DNA of 64,000 nucleotides, from contig OX439050.1 in the NCBI GenBank assembly GCA_949317995.1, forward strand, positions 51,399,777-51,463,776, read 5' to 3'. Position numbers and translations under genes: made by a program. Source of the stretch: Acholoe squamosa. Lineage: Eukaryota; Annelida; Polychaeta; Phyllodocida; Polynoidae. Position 1 is the first letter of the stretch. Each line of letters begins with the position of its first letter. The notes under the pieces were generated by a model. That model did not search any database. It worked only from the letters and a program-made list of their open reading frames with translations, and had not been told where the DNA came from. Of this stretch, positions 48,930-60,203 are shown piece after piece.

Positions 48930-49108
48930 TTACTCTCTGAATTCTACATGTTCTTTGAGATAGGTGTGGAAGGAAGCCTCAGTGATGCGGCTTATATCAG
49001 GCATACCATACCCATCGTCTACTGTGGGTGTTCGACCGCATACATTCTTGTCCCTCAGAATGTTCTTGATGTGGTAGGATGAAGTCAATAAAGTTCTCTT
49101 CTCTGCAC
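48930..49108 (-). CDS. Protease gene, terminal exon
   Basis: 179 nt after acceptor TCTCATTGCAG. It completes a Gly codon and runs to the stop at 48930 (AEKRTLLTSSYHIKNIL ... HVEFRE). The helix after the Ser motif and a short hydrophilic tail follow; there is no proprotein-convertase P domain. Confidence 0.85.
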
Positions 49109-52100
49109 CTGCAATGAGATAGATATGTTGGATGAGCAATAAGACATTGGAAAAGGACCTTGATCTAAATTCGTAAATGCATTTTATTTCACTTCAAGAA
49201 TGAGGTGGTTTTACTGAACAATTATGGGGACACCAATTGTTGAATTCTTTACAGCAGAAACCGAATATTTTTCTCCATGTCCCATTCTCTACTGTAAAAT
49301 TGTCAAAATAGCCTCAAACCCATTTCAAAAAGTGATTCAGATTTTATTAGGGTTATTATAAGGACAACATGAAATAGATAAAGATCCACTTAAACTGCTC
49401 CAAACTAAATATTTCCTCACTCATTATAGCCTCGACACAGGATTCCACTCAGCTTTGCCTTGTGTATGGAATAGGTCTTCGAGGCTAGCTCACAAAGAAA
49501 CACTCAGTTTGTTTGTAACAATTCTAGTGACCGTCTGTCTATTAGTGTCAAATTAAATAGAGAAGACCTAATTAATGATATCCTAGGCAAATGTACATCA
49601 AGTCTCATTTATACTCACCTAGACTCCGTTCAATAAGGACTATAAGCAGAGCAGCAATCCCAGCACAATGAGGTGCAGCCAGTGAAGTCCCTGAGGCTTT
49701 GGCAAATCGATGCGCGTCACCATTAAGTCGATAGAGACTCGATGTAGATTGGATCTCAGTGCCAGGGAAGAGGAAGGAAAGTTCCTGGCCTTTAGAGCTG
49801 TGGCTGCATCTATTGCCCAAATTGTCACAGCTCCCTATAGCAATGACGTATGGATGTTTTGCAGGAAACGTGATGGTCTCTGCTTTGATGTTGCCATCAT
49901 TGGCCGCTGCAGCAATGATTACCTGTTTATAAAAAAAAGGATATGATTCAAATGGAGGGAAAGCTTTGCTATTGATAAGTCAACAAATGCAATTACCTTC
50001 TATTTTAAAAAAAAGTTGAAACTGAAACCCTAATCAGTGATGCATGCTGAGGAGTGTACCCAATATTGTTTCAACAAGTAAGGACTGGTTTTAAAAGTTG
50101 CTGACTTATATTATTATTGACAGTAATCAAAACAGGTATTTAGGTATAATTTTGCAATTGTAGATTCATATAATTATATCAGATATTAAACAGGGTGTAG
50201 GTCTAGAACTTAGTAAATGGAATGTCTCAATGATATATTTACCTTGTCCTCGCCAAGCCTACCAAGCAGTCTGGAGACCCGCTTGTCATATTGTCCAGTA
50301 CCAAGCGATATGAGAATGATGTCAACCTGCATTGTACAGGGATGTAAGTCAGGCATGGGCAAAAATCAGGAAGCCATACATTTACTTGATATAAAAGCCT
50401 TCTATTTTTCCAAACCGCCCTCCTTACCACTTGTATAAGGAAAATACATGTCATTCAAAATTTCCAGAAATTAGGAAATCCTGATAAATCCTGAAGACTT
50501 ACATCCCTGATTGTAACAGATTTCAGTTTAACTTTGGATAACTGCATATACTGCCTTATCTATTGAATCCCAACCAACACCTGATCAGAAAAGATTTTGG
50601 ATCATTTTGAATTACTTGTCTCCTTTTCCGGACTACGTTGGGAGTGTGTGCATGATATTGGTGTGTCTTTTGAATATTGGGTAAGGAGACCAAGGAATTA
50701 CATATCAAGTCCTGACCAAAAAGTCCTATGTCTACTTGTTACCTTTTCATCTGGATGGTCTCTATCCCACTGCTCAATGTAGTATAAAGCACGTCTGATG
50801 TAACTCAATGAACCAGACCCTGTGTTCCTCAGAACCTGTGAAGAACGACCGACGATGCATGTTTTGATTAATTTCCTTAAAAAATATAAATAGGAGCACA
50901 TGGCGGAAAACATCTTACATGAGGGGCTTCTTTCTTGTTGGGTTGGATATATGACACCAGAATTAACAAGGGATGAAAATTGATACCTTTAAAATTAATG
51001 CTTACAAACCAATGAGATTGTAATAGTTAACATCCCCATGTAACCTTGATACCCATACCAATCTGTATCGATTTAAAACAAGAACAATCAAAATTTGCTA
51101 CACTGAGGACGATTTTACAACAGTTGACTATAAAATAAATACCTTGAGATTGAGTATCTTTGTACAGTTGCCTGCTATCTGCCAGAGAATGCCAGCAACC
51201 ATTGTGCCATGATTATGAGAGTCTTGTGTCAGATCCTCCTCTTGACAGACCACATCATCATCATTACGGGGTACAAAGTTCTTACTGGCCAGTATCATCC
51301 CCTGGAAAGTGCAAATTAATTAGCGTTTAATCAACGTTATGAGAGAGCACGCGTGGGTCTATGGTTCAATATTCCACGACCGCGAAGCGGGAGTGGAATA
51401 TTGAACCATAGACCCACAAGTGCTCTCTCATAACGTTGATTAAAGCGTTTATCGAACATATTTCTCCATTTTGTATCAATTTCTTACCTTATAACCCCAG
51501 AATTAATCCAGGAGAAGACATTTTGTAAGTCCATCCTATCCGCACGGTTTGCCAAGCCAGCGTAGCCATTGTTTTTACTCCACCCGTCAGACCCTCGTAT
51601 TTCCAACGAATTTTCGGGTATAATCCAAGGATGTCAAGCCCTGTTATTCTAACAGGGCCAAATATACGATCTCTAGTTGGTGTTCGCATACATTTTGTCT
51701 CCATTCTCTTCGAAATAAATAAGAATCCATTGATTTTCCATAACGATCCAACGCACACGGCCCTGTACACGGCCATTTCGTCTTGTTGACAAAGCGGGGA
51801 GGTGCCCGGATGTAAAAACTAGGTCAGCCACGCGTCGAGCAAGGAATGGCCGGACGGGGCGGGTCCCGACTCGTATCGATGTGGAAAATCAATGGATTCT
51901 TATTTATTTCGAAGAAAATGGAGGAATTTGGCATGGTATGTTCATCTAGGATATCTAAGGATGGTTTTGTGTTAATAACTCCACCAGGCTCCATATATTC
52001 TAGGCTATCGAGGTGTGTAAACTTCAGGTATGTCGGAAAACCTTTTCAAATCCTCCATGTGCAGTGGTTTCTAGCACCGGTCGGCTTGGTATAGTGGACA

Positions 52101-55100
52101 GCGAGCTCGCCTCCTGCCCCAGCGGCCGGGGATCGATTCCCCGTTGAAGCTAAACGGTTTTAACTGGAAAACTATGGCGTGGTTGACTTTGTATACTTCG
52201 CCAATTTATTATCATGTCCAGATTGAAACCAGCAGCCTCTTGAAGACGAAGAAAAGGTCTCAGAGTGCGTTATGGCTGGATAAGGAACTGGGGTTATGAG
52301 CAAAAAAGCACAGTTGAGGCTCAGATAGTTAGATAATGAATCATATTCCCTCTATTTGTGACATTTGGCTTAGCCAAACCATATAATTTTCACAGTTTTT
52401 AACTCACCAGACTGGCACTGGAGGGCCTGCAAATAATAAAAAGAATTCTGAACATCAATTTTGTGGGCTGATTTTGAGTTTTTTCATCTTGTCTACAGGT
52501 CAATTCACAATGGTATTTGTAAAGCTAACACAACATACATTATTTTACCCCCTTATTAATATTACAAGATGCCTGTAATCAAAAGGATTTATATAATTAA
52601 CCTGCTAGTCATGGTCCTCATTTAAAAATCTTACACCTACTAACAATATCAAAGCTGCAGTGACCTGATACTCAGTCATAATCAAAGAACAAAGAAGACA
52701 TAATGTAGCTTAGATCTGTTTGGAGGTTTAAGCTACGACTATCAATTATTTTAATTATTACAGTCATCAGGATTATCTGCCAGAACCTGCTGTGGACCTC
52801 AGGGTGGATTTATACTCATGGAACTGGGGTATCCAGCCCACAAGAGAATTCTGTCAAATTTGGCTCATACAATTTTCTAAAGAATTTGAGGTAGTTCGTG
52901 AAGACACAATGAGGCTGATGGCATTGTATCTAGGGATATGGCACTCTAAAATTATGCATCAACACACTAAAAGAATTGTTGTTGAGATAAGGGTTAAAAG
53001 AGATTAGAATTCAAAATTCAGATCACAGTTTCAGGGATGTGCCACATAAGAAGTATTTTTGTTATTGTTAATCCTCAAATATACTCGATAAAAAAGTATA
53101 TGTACCTGAAGGTCTGGGTGTTCATATATACCAGAATCTAGTACAGCGATGATGACTGGGTGAGATGGTTGATGCTGTAGCTGGTCGCGAAGAGCTTGGA
53201 TGTCCTTAGCCATCCACTGCAGGCCAGGGTTGATGTGTGCTATGGGACATGTGTTCTGTGGTACACCCACCATCTGAAAAAGGTTTAGCTATGTAATCTG
53301 ACATGAGTATTTATGGGCCAGAACTGATTACTGAAATAACAATGCATACACATATTTATTATGGATATAGAAAATTACATAATCTACAATAAGTTCATGA
53401 CGTACCTGAGATTCCTGGACTGGGTATGGGAGATTGTCAGCCTCTGCATGGCCTGAAAGAGTGATTCCATATTCCAGTTAGCTGTACTTTGAAACCACAA
53501 AACAAATCGAAGTGATTTTAGCAATCACAACTTTCTCTAAAGTGTTGATTAAGTCCCGCCTTTTGCCTGTCATATTTGAAATCCTCTTCCTTATATCCTA
53601 AGAGTATAGTATAGTATAACAATGACCATGATAAGTATAATTCATAATTGGAGAACTGATATTTCTACCATGTTCACCTTATATTCAGATTCTTTCTGTG
53701 CCCACAATTAGGTGTTGAAATTATAATGCATCCTTAGCATAACAGAATATAAAATGAATCGATATAATTTTATATATACATAAAAAACCATCAATGTTCA
53801 CCTTTTTTCAGGAAATAAAATATGTTTTGGCATAGCTACCTCTCACTGAATCTTCACTTGGTGTTGTCTGTTCCTTCCCCTGTGATACAAAAAAATAATG
53901 TTTTAAATTGTTAACCATTATCGTGAATGCTCTTCATATTGAACCATAACTTAAGCCTACTACAAACATATTCAGTCAGATGGATATTTTACTTATTATT
54001 TGTGGCCAGGCGAGGGAAACCATGGCTTTAGGGGTGAAATTACTTCTTAAAGTTTAAGTCACTTGAGTTACATACTACTGCAAATGACAAATACACTTTG
54101 TTTCTAGAAGGAATTTTCGAGGTGCATGAGTATTTTCAAAACATTTTGGCCATAACTTCTTATTTTGAATGGTTTGGATTCCATGGAAATAGAACTATAA
54201 TCTATTTCATGACTTGGAAATTGCAACCCAGTAAACGCGGTCATGTCGTGAGAATAAATTACATGGAATCAATTAAGACACCTAACATAGTTTGCTTAGC
54301 ATCATGCTTCCTACCTCTTGATCCTCTGAATCTGTTAACTCTGCAAGATGTCCATCCAGTAGCCATAGTACGTTTGGGGATCCAGCTGGTGATGAAGTTG
54401 ACTGATCACGGTTTGTTGATGGAAGGTGTTGGCCACCCGGTACACAGAGGATTGAGCCAGTTGTAGAAGATGAAACAGAGAAAGGCATTATCTGTGTGAA
54501 TTAAACCAATACTCAAGTTATTTGCAGACCTGCATTTTAACGGCATTACACTACAACCCCCACCTAAACAGCCATCAGAACTCGGTATGAATCAAATAAA
54601 CAGAAGAAAAGGAAAAAAAAGAAGAGAAAAAAACAAGGACAAAACTAAAATTGTTTTCCATAAAACGACACCAAGCAATGGCTGATAGGCTACATATGAT
54701 GTCAAAAATGATACAAATAGATATTATTAGAATATCAGTCACTCCTTGGTATAAATTTATCAACAAAGTGCATAAGCACTTCCGGACCCTCAAGAAACTT
54801 ACACCTTCAAGCGACTTTCTAGAGCTCTCCCCAATAATTCATATTCACCAACCCTTTTGAATTAGGCCTGAAAAGTGTGTTTTGTTCAGGTAACGCTACC
54901 TACCCTAACTTATTTTATGGGAATTTTTTGGGAAAATCAGATATTTTAGCACCTATCGAGAATGGAGTCTTTTTATTATGATATCACACGTCAAATTTGC
55001 ATCGCATAAGTGCTAATTTACAGCCAGCCTCAAAAGAATTCTCCAAAATAAAAGAAAATTTCCTTACCTACCTACCATAATTTTAGACCCCATTACCTGA

Positions 55101-57556
55101 ACGCAACAATTCTTTTTAGGCCTTAAATGAATCCAGATCTATACTTACTCGACTGGCCATATCTGTTGTCGGAAAGTAAGATTTGCTGTCAGCATCCTTT
55201 TCTTCAGCACTATTGGAGAATATCTGATCTGTAATATCACAGCCTGTAGCGGGGTTCACAATACGCATGAGTTTTTTCTCCCTTGATATCATGTGACCTG
55301 TCTCTGGCACATTAGTATCGTTAGTTTTTGCATCAGAGATCTTTAGGAGGAGTTCTTTTGATATATCACAGCCAGTAGCCGGATCGACAATGGAGATGAG
55401 CCTCTTTTCTTTATTAACTCTCCCTGATTTTGGGTACTCAGGGTTGTTAATTCTTGTGTCAAAACCATTTGAAACAGTGTTTGCAAAGATATCGCGCCCT
55501 GTGTTTGGGTCAATGATGCAGACTGGGTTCTTTTCTCTTCTCGTGAATGGACCAGGCCCAGGATGTTCACAACGTTTGGCGATTCGATCGGCATTGTGTG
55601 CTGATAGTTTCTCTAAGATATTCTCTCTAAGCTCTCTGGCTGGGTCCAGTCTGATATCATAGAAACTTTGGGCATCTGCCTCGCCGCCTTCACTAGGCTT
55701 GGAATCATCATCTGCTGTTGGATCGGTAATATGAATGAGATCCTTCCCTCTGTCATCTGATGTATGTTCCTCTTCACTGAGATTTGGAGAAGGTGTACTG
55801 AGTGATTGATGATAATGTGGGACTGTCCGATTGAGTACATGAGAGATGCCTGAGGGCCAGTGTGGTGGTGCGAGGACTTGGCGTAGTTGTAGGAACTCGT
55901 TATCATAGCGTACCTTGGTCTCTGTATTTTTTATGACCATTGTATCGCCTTGGATACTTGGGTTTAGTTCTTCAGGCAGCATGGTGAGAGGCTCCTCAAC
56001 TAAATACCTCAGTATCCATTTGCATGTATCTGGTAGGGAAAAGAATAATCGCAATGATTATTACATGCATGTACAATGTTGTGAATACTTCACGGATGAA
56101 CATACACAAAACTGGTTGATGCTGTAGATAAGATGTTGTTACCCTCACAGGGAAAAATCAGAAGCACATGATAGCACGTGCCATTTGTAAAACAGCACAG
56201 CTAAAAATAATTTTCTTGATTTAAGAAAATGAGAAAAATTATCTTACGTGGCGGACAAAACTACCAGTTTTAAGAAAATAAAAAATCTTAAAACTGTTAG
56301 TTTTGTCCATCAGGTAAGTTTATTTAAGATTTCAAGAAAATTATTTTTAGCTGTGAGAATGTAGAGCTTAGATACCAGTTAATGCCGATTGCTGCTTGTA
56401 TATTCATGTTTCTTTGCACATTATTGCTGATTTATGTATACCCCTAATAGCCCCGAGCCCAGGCAATCATGGAAAACAAGGGGCCTACTGCAGTCAAGAA
56501 TGGGCATAAGCAACAGGGACATAGGAAAAGGAGGACCAGGGCCGCAGGCATTTACCCCAAATCACAGATGAGCTCAGGGAAGGGGGCATTTTTGACCCCC
56601 ACCCCCCCCCCCCCCAAAAAAAAAGAAGAAATTGTCAAGACCTCATAACAAAATTAATTCGCAACCTTAATACCACTCACGTTGGAAAGGGAAAATATGG
56701 GCAAGTTTATATATTTGGACATGCATCTTGTTTGAATGAATGCCTTTTGTAAGAAACAGTCCTGACGTTTGAAATGGGACATTAGGGCAAAAAAACAACC
56801 TTTTTAGGCCTAATGATGTTGCATTGGAAATTGGACATTGATTTTTCCATACAAGAATGTGTAAATAAGGGGTCTAATTTGAAACAGGACTATGTATAAC
56901 CTGCTTTATTAGAAACGGGACTCATCATAATTGGGATTATAAAATTAGACAGGACTTTTATATAAAGTCTACAACTTTTGCACTAATTTTATGTCAGTCA
57001 ATACCTGACACCCAGGTATAATGGATAAGGCATCTACCCGCTGCTCAAGCTGTCACGGGTTTGAATCTTAATTTGCTTCACACCATTACTTGACAACAAC
57101 AAAAAGTGAGAAATGGAACATTTTTCATTTTTTTTTTAAAAACTTGATTAGACGATTACTTTTACTGAAACCTTGTCCAAAAGCCTATAATTTTCTTCAG
57201 AAAGGGAGTAAAAAGACGGTCTGTCCTGTTTCGCTAGGTATACAGCGTCGGGTTACCTAAAACAAACAATTTGTTTCTTTGGCCTCATCATTTGCCATTT
57301 TCTGTCATATACTAATTGATCAATTGCTGATAAATGTGAGAAATTGTGCCACCTGCAGCCATCAGAAACAACCCGTCACCACCCGCAAACCATAACCTAT
57401 CAATCGATCAATTTGAACAATCCTGATGTATAAGAAGATTCACTAGAGCCAACTCTTGGCAGTGAGTTTCAAAAGTAGAAATTGCTTTTTCATCACTTAC
57501 CATAGGAAAGGATTGTCCCATATAAAGACCTGATCTCAAATGTATGTATGTCTACT
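48930..57556 (-). CDS. Chimeric subtilisin-like (S8) serine protease with eIF4G-like N-terminal region; 11 exons, 5' end incomplete
   Basis: The model joins, in transcript order, 57501..57556, 55149..56029, 54315..54491, 53840..53879, 53406..53452, 53106..53273, 51143..51301, 50743..50835, 50243..50326, 49619..49922 and 48930..49108. All ten introns are GT-AG and every phase agrees, giving at least 728 residues to the stop. The C-terminal half is a complete subtilase domain: VIIAVLDSG (Asp446), HNHGTMVAG (His487), AAAANDG (oxyanion Asn576) and GTSLAAPHCAG (Ser648), with normal spacing. It should be an active endopeptidase. Residues about 55-280 look like eIF4G: RYDNEFL (Tyr60) and DPxTGxDI repeats. 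No signal peptide, inhibitor-I9 prodomain or membrane segment is seen, but the first exons are missing. The first exon is the least sure. Confidence 0.85.
49619..49922 (-). CDS. Protease gene, oxyanion Asn and catalytic Ser exon
   Basis: 304 nt. Begins VIIAAAANDGN (oxyanion Asn), continues TFPAKHPYVIAIGS, and has ASGTSLAAPHCAGIAALL with the nucleophile Ser in GTSxAAPxxAG. Confidence 0.95.
50243..50326 (-). CDS. Protease gene, VDIILISLG exon
   Basis: 84 nt, 28 codons, VDIILISLGTGQYDKRVSRL and onward. VDII.(I/M)SLG is the substrate-binding strand before the oxyanion region. Confidence 0.88.
50743..50835 (-). CDS. Protease gene, substrate-cleft strand/helix exon
   Basis: 93 nt, VLRNTGSGSLSYIRRALYYI and onward. 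It corresponds to the KVL...GSGS..I..ALYYI segment of subtilases after the His helix. Confidence 0.88.
51143..51301 (-). CDS. Protease gene, catalytic His exon
   Basis: 159 nt, phase 0/0. Begins GMILASKNFV, continues with an acidic insert, then HNHGTMVAGI, the S8 histidine motif (HGTxVAG). Confidence 0.93.
51322..51449. repeat. Long palindrome C with CACGA...GAGTG centre, intronic
   Basis: Arms of about 54 bp (CAACGTTATGAGAGAGCAC ... GTGGGTCTATGGTTCAATAT) are almost perfect complements. The centre 51375..51395 is CACGA-CCGC-GAA-GCGG-GAGTG. It starts about 20 bp upstream of the acceptor of the catalytic His exon. Confidence 0.9.
51701..51921. repeat. Inverted repeat pair, 40-bp arms
   Basis: 51701..51740 and 51882..51921 are inverted repeats with one mismatch (core CTTATTTATTTCGAAGA), separated by 141 bp of GC-richer DNA. 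Reading towards each arm gives WKINGFLFIS on both strands. Confidence 0.8.
52079..52152 (+). mobile_element. tRNA-derived SINE head or tRNA pseudogene (intronic)
   Basis: A box TGGTATAGTGGACAGC (from 52087) and B box in GGGGATCGATTCCCC (52128..52142), which forms a perfect T-arm. No acceptor stem pairs, so a SINE head is likelier than a working tRNA. Confidence 0.6.
53106..53273 (-). CDS. Protease gene, catalytic Asp exon
   Basis: 168 nt, phase 0/0. Ends VIIAVLDSGIYEHPDLQ: the S8 aspartate motif (D-S/T-G) followed by the typical HPDL. Confidence 0.92.
53406..53452 (-). CDS. Protease gene, small linker exon
   Basis: 47 nt, HAEADNLPYPVQESQ. Acceptor CTCTTTCAG and donor CAG|GTACGT. It leads directly into the catalytic domain exon. 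Confidence 0.7.
53840..53879 (-). CDS. Protease gene, small linker exon
   Basis: 40 nt, GKEQTTPSEDSVR plus one base of a Gly codon. It joins in phase to 53406..53452. Confidence 0.65.
54004..54200. repeat. Dispersed repeat family R1, intronic copy 3
   Basis: GGCCAGGCGAGGGAAACC with the TTAAAGTTTAAGTCAC block resembles 23629..23695, and ATTCCATGGAAATAGAAC recalls the TTCCATGGCAAC block. Confidence 0.4.
54315..54491 (-). CDS. Protease gene, linker exon
   Basis: 177 nt, phase 0/0, Ser/Thr-rich linker between the eIF4G-like region and the protease (IMPFSVSSSTTGS ... DSEDQE). Acceptor TTCACACAG, donor GAG|GTAGGA. Confidence 0.7.
55149..56029 (-). CDS. Protease gene, large exon encoding eIF4G-like region
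   Basis: This 881-nt exon runs from CCCTACCAG| to CGA|GTAAGT. It encodes 293 residues plus a split codon. In model numbering, RYDNEFL at 59-65 and PSGISHVL about 12 residues on match the eIF4E-binding segment of eIF4G (YDREFL ... GLPHISDVVL). DP motifs follow at Asp121, Asp147 (degenerate), Asp192, Asp234 and Asn277. The clear ones read IIDPNTGRDI, IVDPATGCDI and IVNPATGCDITDQI. eIF4G has one IRDPN.GG.DITEEI motif. The ATG at 56054 lies in the intron and is not the start. The region is hydrophilic and probably disordered between motifs. A plakin-repeat-like origin is the alternative reading. Confidence 0.8.
56197..56357. mobile_element. MITE, CACAGCTAAAAATAATTTTC ends (intronic)
   Basis: The left end and its complement GAAAATTATTTTTAGCTGTG (to 56357) are inverted repeats. 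A second inverted repeat (ACAAAACTA / TAGTTTTGT) is nested inside. Confidence 0.8.
57010..57072 (+). mobile_element. tRNA-like SINE fragment (intronic)
   Basis: AGGTATAATGGATAAGGCAT (A-box region) and CACGGGTTTGAATCTT (degenerate B box), about 35 nt apart. Probably a decayed SINE head. Confidence 0.45.
57501..57556 (-). CDS. Protease gene, most 5' exon found (tentative)
   Basis: A 56-nt segment between ACTTTACAG and G|GTAAGTG. Its frame, VDIHTFEIRSLYGTILSY, joins to the next exon with a split Asp codon. There is no family match of its own, so it rests on splice signals and phase. Confidence 0.45.
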
Positions 57557-59426: not shown

Positions 59427-59956
59427 TATATCATGGCTAATGCTTAGGTACCGGTAGTAACAAATTAGCTGGGACAACTATAAGTACAACTATAGATGGC
59501 GACACCATGAGCAGGGGCCCGGGGGGGACACTCATTATATGCCACAGACAGGAGTGTGCGGCTGGCAAGGTCACTTTTTGGCCAAAATCCCTTTCACTAA
59601 GGGTCTGGTTTTGGTCAAAATCCCTCTCACCAAGGGTCACTTTTAGCCAAAATCCCTCTCACCAAGGGTCACTTTTCTCATATTTTGATCGTATATCATG
59701 GCTAATGCTTAGGTACCGGTAGTAACAAATTAGCTGGGACAACTTTAAGTACAACTATAGATGGCGACACCATGAGCAGGGGCCCGGGGGGGACACTCAT
59801 TATATGCCACAGACAGGAGTGTGCGGCTGGCAAGGTCACTTTTTGGCCAAAATCCCTTTCACTAAGGGTCTGGTTTTGGTCAAAATCCCTCTCACCAAGG
59901 GTCACTTTTAGCCAAAATCCCTCTCACCAAGGGTCACTTTTCTCATATTTTGACCC
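59427..59956. repeat. Direct tandem duplication, 265 bp x 2
   Basis: 59427..59691 and 59692..59956 are almost identical (one clear difference, CTATAAGTAC versus CTTTAAGTAC, plus the last bases). The duplicated unit covers the left part of the GGGACACTC element and its flank. Confidence 0.95.
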
Positions 59957-60203
59957 TGCACGTCAAAATAAGTGCCAGTTTTCGGGATTTCCATCAAAAT
60001 TTCTGCCGAATATGGTCAGTTTTGATAAAAATTCCGCACATCAAGGGTAAATTTCAAAATAAAAAACTGTGCACATTTTTTACCAAAATCCCTCTCACCA
60101 AGGGTCACCTTTTGCCCAAAATCCCTCTCATCAAGGGTAAGGGTTGTCAGAGGCCCAGCCGCACACCCCCGTCAGAAGAAATCTGAGTGTCCCCCCCCCC
60201 CGG
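59513..60203. mobile_element. GGGACACTC-ended element with internal minisatellite
   Basis: The left end CCCGGGGGGGACACTCA...GTGTGCGGCTGG is mirrored at 60155..60203 (CCAGCCGCACAC ... TGAGTGTCCCCCCC). The interior repeats AAAATCCCTCTCACCAAGGG about eight times. The left end is present twice through the 265-bp duplication. Confidence 0.75.

Follow-up and report, generated by a model that had tools for sequence, protein, structure and literature searches.

Organization of the locus

The window analysed here is a 64,000-nt stretch of the Acholoe squamosa genome (contig OX439050.1, positions 51,399,777 to 51,463,776; this contig is designated C16 below, and the genome spans 1.48 Gb). On its minus strand lie ten exons (56029..48930) with AG/GT borders, which join into a frame of 694 residues without an internal stop. 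The first of these is an 881-nt exon bearing repeats of the type that binds PABP in the translation factor eIF4G; it contributes 278 codons after a proposed start at ATG 55982 (context CACCATGC), and the two ATGs that precede this one in the exon, at 56025 and 56019, are both out of frame. Three short linker exons follow, and then six exons that encode a subtilisin-like protease domain of the S8 family (Table 1). An earlier note on this DNA had described eleven exons in agreeing phases; the ten listed here do join in frame, but the outermost, 57556..57501, has been dropped, since its phase-compatible frame holds no ATG and it had no match in the paralogous stretches examined, which was the sole homology search made for it.

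Table 1. Positions and supporting evidence for the exons and motifs of the window, and for Death-like open reading frames at two related loci
Feature	Position	Strand	Evidence
N-terminal exon with eIF4G-type repeats, 881 nt, ATG 55982	55149..56029	-	Open frame, AG/GT borders, phase-0 donor GTAAGT; paralogous exon C16:55961322
Segment YDNEFL, eIF4E-binding site of the earlier note, unsupported	55890..55907	-	Common pattern; chance score against own eIF4G site; 3/5000 against human peptide
Repeat 1, VCIIDPNTGRDI, predicted eIF4G-type PABP-binding motif	55488..55523	-	Profile and pattern
Repeat 2, ISIVDPATGCDI, retains I-x-I at the presumed PABP RRM2 contact of eIF4G (from passages of PMC3169606)	55362..55397	-	Profile and pattern
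Repeat 3, MRIVNPATGCDI	55233..55268	-	Profile and pattern
Linker exon, 59 codons	54315..54491	-	Open frame, phase 0/0, AG/GT
Linker micro-exon, 40 nt, weakest of the model	53840..53879	-	Phase and borders only
Exon ending ...LPYPVQESQ, common to the S8 paralogue	53406..53452	-	Homologue ELPYPVQESQ at L017:4206-4244, 9/13 identical, same starting phase
S8 exon, catalytic Asp (AVLDSG)	53106..53273	-	86% identity to paralogue over 56 aa
S8 exon, catalytic His (NHGT)	51143..51301	-	PDB alignment and paralogue comparison
S8 exon	50743..50835	-	Joined frame and paralogue comparison
S8 exon (VDIILISLGTG)	50243..50326	-	Joined frame and paralogue comparison
S8 exon, oxyanion Asn (AAANDG) and catalytic Ser (SGTSLAAPH)	49619..49922	-	Asn and Ser invariant in 8/8 aligned copies of the genome
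Last S8 exon, ends in stop codon	48930..49108	-	84% identity to paralogue over 58 aa
Death-like open reading frames upstream of S8, two C18 loci	L010:167-469, L010:3120-3413, L019:8118-8420, L020:239-391

The S8 protease domain

In the joined frame, the protease domain is matched by the Pfam family PF00082 with an E value of 7.7e-34 (117.8 bits against a cut-off of 21.8). Its best match in the PDB is subtilisin BPN', and the intracellular subtilisins 2x8j and 2wv7 are also recovered. In the PDB alignments, read on 1dui_A, the catalytic residues of subtilisin BPN' are paired with Asp, His, Asn and Ser in the joined frame; the full S8 catalytic set reported in the earlier note, with the oxyanion Asn, is thus present. 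Against the closest paralogue in the genome (at C16:56.03M, in the fetched stretch L017), the six S8 exons show 68-86% identity per exon, and the ratio of nonsynonymous to synonymous divergence (dN/dS) is 0.11 (dN 0.136, dS 1.28, 340 aligned codons; bootstrap 0.066-0.159), a value that the high dS makes approximate, yet one that is far under 1. The S8 part, with its catalytic set intact, is under purifying selection; it is no relic but a protein held under constraint. No I9 propeptide was found among the Pfam matches with E<=1 when the N-terminal exon and the S8 part were scanned apart, and visual inspection, without a predictor, showed no signal peptide. Further, a profile of the exon with the catalytic Ser matched 45 loci in prokaryote genomes, at 24-55% identity.

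eIF4G-type repeats in the N-terminal exon

The relationship of the three repeats to eIF4G was assessed with a profile (A1) built from them and from the two repeats of a paralogous exon at C16:55961322, with eIF4G itself kept out. Among 177,635 PDB sequences the top match of this profile is the eIF4G peptide 1lj2_C (1.8e-4); a second eIF4G peptide, 4f02_C, comes next at 0.24 and is followed at 0.26 by an unrelated enzyme, so that only 1lj2_C stands clear. The worm's own eIF4G could be located on the same contig by its MIF4G domain (C16:32990446-32991285), its eIF4E-binding exon (C16:32985753-32985854) and its motif exon (C16:32946454), and the motif of the latter matches the same two PDB peptides. 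Aligned to the window exon, this own-genome motif scores 68, which none of 5000 shuffles equals, and the human eIF4G PABP peptide scores 47, which is equalled by one in 5000. A core pattern, [ILMV].I[IVR][DN]P.[TSQ]G.D[IVM], was also scanned over 628,894 six-frame residues from 27 records, comprising the window and stretches chosen for S8 or motif matches and therefore not a census of the genome. It has six matches, all of them in three eIF4G-type exons (three in the window exon, two in the paralogous exon and one in the own eIF4G); this pattern had been fitted to the known repeats, and a prior regular expression, whose spacing was unfit for the window repeats, matched the eIF4G copy only.

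The DPxTGxDI motifs of the earlier note are hence three real copies of eIF4G type, and by their sequence they are the PABP-binding motif of eIF4G. Passages of PMC3169606 describe this motif as a PABP-binding site and state that Ile140 and Ile142 of eIF4G1 presumably pack on Phe119 and Phe122 of RRM2 of PABP; by our own placing, the five repeats of the profile show V-x-I, I-x-I, M-x-I, L-x-I and L-x-I at the position of these two residues. The earlier note had aimed the protease at cap-binding complexes. Because the repeated motif is the one by which eIF4G binds PABP, we predict that PABP, and not the cap complex, is the likelier partner of the tail.

Two further segments of the same exon, HITDPTADDDS and IRLDPARELRENIL, look by eye as if they may be additional, decayed copies. 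When the exon is searched alone, its PDB match (IFRD2, E 1.4) is weak and unrelated, and the Pfam matches PHB_acc_N (7e-4; 20.1 bits, under its cut-off of 25) and DUF4452 (0.16) are taken as spurious. MIF4G is absent from the Pfam matches of the protein, and none of the seven MIF4G matches of the genome falls within the window. The MLLE domain, which occurs in PABP and UBR5, has four exon-level matches in the genome.

A paralogous motif exon and the other S8 loci

A genome search with the motif exon of the window, with the best 13 candidates scored, returned the exon itself, C16:55961322 (4.8e-9), eIF4G (0.093) and one chance-level match (5.6). The reverse search from C16:55961322, with the best 25 candidates scored, returned the window exon only; the two are therefore mutual best non-self matches, and C16:55961322 appears to be the only other exon with the repeat motif outside eIF4G among the candidates scored. 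Read from the sequence, the donor of each of the two exons is in phase 0. About 67-70 kb downstream of the paralogous motif exon, on the same strand, is the closest S8 paralogue, whose Ser exon is at C16:56031587; two such features would fall within 71 kb of each other at random with a probability of about 1e-4. Because the one other motif exon recovered occupies this position, the motif tail and the S8 domain were probably linked in the ancestor of the two copies.

The paralogous motif exon (L032:7870-8770, at C16:55.961M) is proline-rich and contains, besides its two eIF4G-type PABP motifs, a GYEEDFPPLS segment. Just upstream of it, L032:6762-7659 shares a 0.9-kb stretch, 85% identical, with an intron of the window gene (window 51439-52336), which is probably a dispersed repeat. 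At the S8 paralogue, the acceptor of an S8 exon together with its first codons (MVGIPQHTCPI) is present four times in tandem (L017:4620-4830).

The S8 domain has 21 exon-level matches in the genome. Flanking sequence was fetched at 11 places besides the window (a single 10-kb piece each for C13, C4 and C3), and architecture was examined at eight of them, namely C16:56.03M, C16:36.79M, C18 at 35.38M, 46.77M, 53.21M, 53.27M and 53.41M, and C6:27.05M, with C1, C5 and C17 left out. At four of the eight, signalling modules are found upstream of S8 on the same strand, these being ROC-COR at two and Death-like at the other two. The closest paralogue (C16:56.03M) has a COR-A open reading frame (ORF) upstream of S8 (6.7e-19, L017:1779-3077), as well as a NACHT ORF (2.9e-6, L018:4466-5734) and a ROC-type P-loop exon (L018:7487-7789) at C16:56.02-56.03M; this ROC is a homologue, with 53% identity, of the one at C16:36.79M. 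At the latter locus a ROC-like P-loop exon (0.0011, below the cut-off), a COR-A ORF (6e-18) and S8 exons stand in a row on one strand (L016:7014-8280, L015:544-7762), forming an apparent ROC-COR-S8 gene; the ORFs before the ROC are CARD-like by eye, with no Pfam match. The Death-like modules are at C18:46.77M, where one Death domain (PF00531, 2.2e-6) is accompanied by a second, sub-cut-off one (0.0044), and at C18:35.38M, where an ORF below the cut-off (0.0022) is 43% identical to the 2.2e-6 ORF of C18:46.77M and a further stretch is 49% identical to its second Death ORF. These two are apparent Death-S8 genes. From order and spacing we infer that the ROC-COR and Death modules are spliced to S8.

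The same module queries found no match at E<=0.05 in the stretches examined at C18:53.21M, 53.27M and 53.41M and C6:27.05M. The window has no ROC, COR, NACHT or Death match at E<=0.05 and no Death domain in Pfam, and a genome search for COR gave 12 matches, none near C16:51.45M. The window copy thus seems to have lost ROC-COR, or never to have had it, with the eIF4G-type tail taking its place. Upstream of the gene, at window 59437-60186, ORF translations show repeated peptide-like units (KIPLTKGHF and similar), a sign of a tandem repeat.

Alternative explanations

That the ten exons belong to one gene is, on the sequence features, a likely reading because the phases agree, the motif exon has a GTAAGT donor in phase 0 from which the next open exon resumes in phase 0, only 657 nt separate these two exons, and the motif exon and S8 appear to have been duplicated together, keeping strand and order in both copies. 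The alternative that deserves most attention, although we consider it rather unlikely, is that a small eIF4G-motif protein, with 56029..55149 as its last exon, lies next to a separate S8 gene, and that the two share an open frame through chance agreement of their phases. Several findings weigh on that side: if the donor is unused, the exon reads through to a stop at 55116 with an AATAAA at 54977, although this hexamer is expected 0.37 times by chance in that interval; at the paralogous locus a retroelement and NACHT, ROC and COR ORFs intervene between the motif exon and S8, so that the two may be separate genes there; and the first two linker exons, for which the evidence consists of open frame, borders and phase, gave no further copy at E<=1 in a genome search in which the best candidates only were scored. 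The reading of a PABP-docked protease is weakened besides by the low identity of the two motif exons to each other (36-37%) and by the lack of any eIF4G match in the PDB or Pfam for the N-terminal exon alone. The eIF4G similarity proposed in the earlier note is hence recovered by the repeat profile but not by the exon as a whole.

With one gene as the likely arrangement, the partner of its tail has also to be considered. The earlier note had read RYDNEFL as an eIF4E-binding site, and a tail that binds eIF4E would aim the protease at the cap-binding complex. The letters are indeed present in the exon, and RYDxEFL together with PxGI aligns to the human eIF4G peptide 5t46_B with a score of 44, a value that 3 in 5000 shuffles reach and the highest among 2213 ORFs of the window. 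However, the eIF4E-binding site of the worm's own eIF4G (KAYDRNFLLQMQ...KPDGLPRLPDVIL) scores 27 against the exon, which is the shuffle mean (2368/5000 as high). The eIF4E-binding consensus is YxxxxL-hydrophobic, and the exon has Gln at the last position, where a hydrophobic residue is expected. The pattern Y[DST]xx[FW]L is also frequent, with 23 matches in the residues scanned above, of which the true eIF4G site accounts for one, and the 4E-like site precedes the PABP motif in this exon, the reverse of the order in the own eIF4G gene. The paralogous exon has no match to the human peptide among the two best per locus, and the 36-residue 4E-like piece alone has no PDB match. On the chance score, the Gln and the frequency of the pattern, we reject this segment as an eIF4E-binding site and regard targeting through eIF4E as highly improbable; what stands of the proposed fusion is a PABP-motif segment in phase before a complete S8 domain. 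Another possibility, to which we assign little weight, is one gene with repeats that have a binding partner other than PABP, or that make the tail a sensor by baiting a viral factor which, like rotavirus NSP3, takes hold of the eIF4G motif. It would accord with the best PDB match of the repeats, 1lj2_C, as we take 1lj2 to be the NSP3-eIF4G complex, and with the Death or ROC-COR ORFs upstream of related S8 domains. It would also accord with passages of PMC3169606 in which NSP3 recognises this region of eIF4G, and with passages of PMC8591160 on the arrest of host translation by viral proteases that cleave eIF4G and PABP, and on the mimic sites through which NLRP1 and CARD8 act as tripwires. Against this, sequence alone cannot separate a bait from a docking site.

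A possible role at the poly(A) tail

Taking these observations together, we propose, as a reading whose chances we see as evenly balanced, that the locus holds a single gene for a cytosolic S8 protease, which docks on PABP through three eIF4G-type PABP-binding motifs in its N-terminal tail. The repeats would attach the protease, by way of RRM2, to the PABP that lines poly(A) tails, and three sites might provide avidity on a PABP-covered tail. Once triggered, the protease could cut PABP, eIF4G or other messenger ribonucleoprotein components, and thereby shut down translation in a stressed or infected cell. Given the viral cleavage of eIF4G and PABP and the tripwire mimics of NLRP1 and CARD8, both an effector role and a bait role are conceivable. 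We tentatively suggest, as a possibility on the doubtful side, an immune or stress protease with a mimic of the PABP dock of eIF4G, which either cuts the poly(A)-bound machinery or baits viral attackers of eIF4G and PABP. If this is true, the protein would be a host-coded counterpart of the viral translation shut-off proteases, or a bait for such an attack.

Relation to known systems

The linkage of subtilisins with ROC-COR and Death modules is an arrangement that our literature searches did not turn up. No S8-eIF4G or ROC-COR-S8 protein was among the matches listed in the open-licence literature, as far as titles and the starts of abstracts show; the terms "protease," "peptidase" and "subtilisin" are absent from a review of Roco proteins (PMC6337361), and "subtilisin" and "S8 peptidase" are absent from PMC8195603. 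S8 domains do occur in conflict-related settings: sections of PMC7159879 place one in some bacterial conflict systems, and Peptidase S8 is among the domains listed for fungal NOD-like receptors in part of PMC4986451. The latter are alike in using S8 as a domain of an immune receptor; they are fungal, and that part of the paper mentions no eIF4G motif.

Within the genome, the S8 loci that lie behind ROC-COR (C16:56.03M, C16:36.79M) or Death-like modules (C18:46.77M, C18:35.38M) have a homologous S8 domain, with 49-77% identity over the Ser exon, and the window differs from them in being without those modules. With the PABP motif of eIF4G (1lj2 chain C, 4f02 chain C and the own copy at C16:32946454), the repeats share the hydrophobic-x-I contacts and the DPxxGxDI core. 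In contrast to eIF4G, for which one copy was found in this genome, the window exon has three clear copies, without MIF4G or a supported eIF4E site and with a protease attached. Finally, the S8 subtilases (subtilisin BPN', 2x8j, 2wv7) have the same catalytic residues and domain extent as the protease described here, which is distinguished from them by the lack of an I9 match and by its N-terminal tail of translation-factor motifs.

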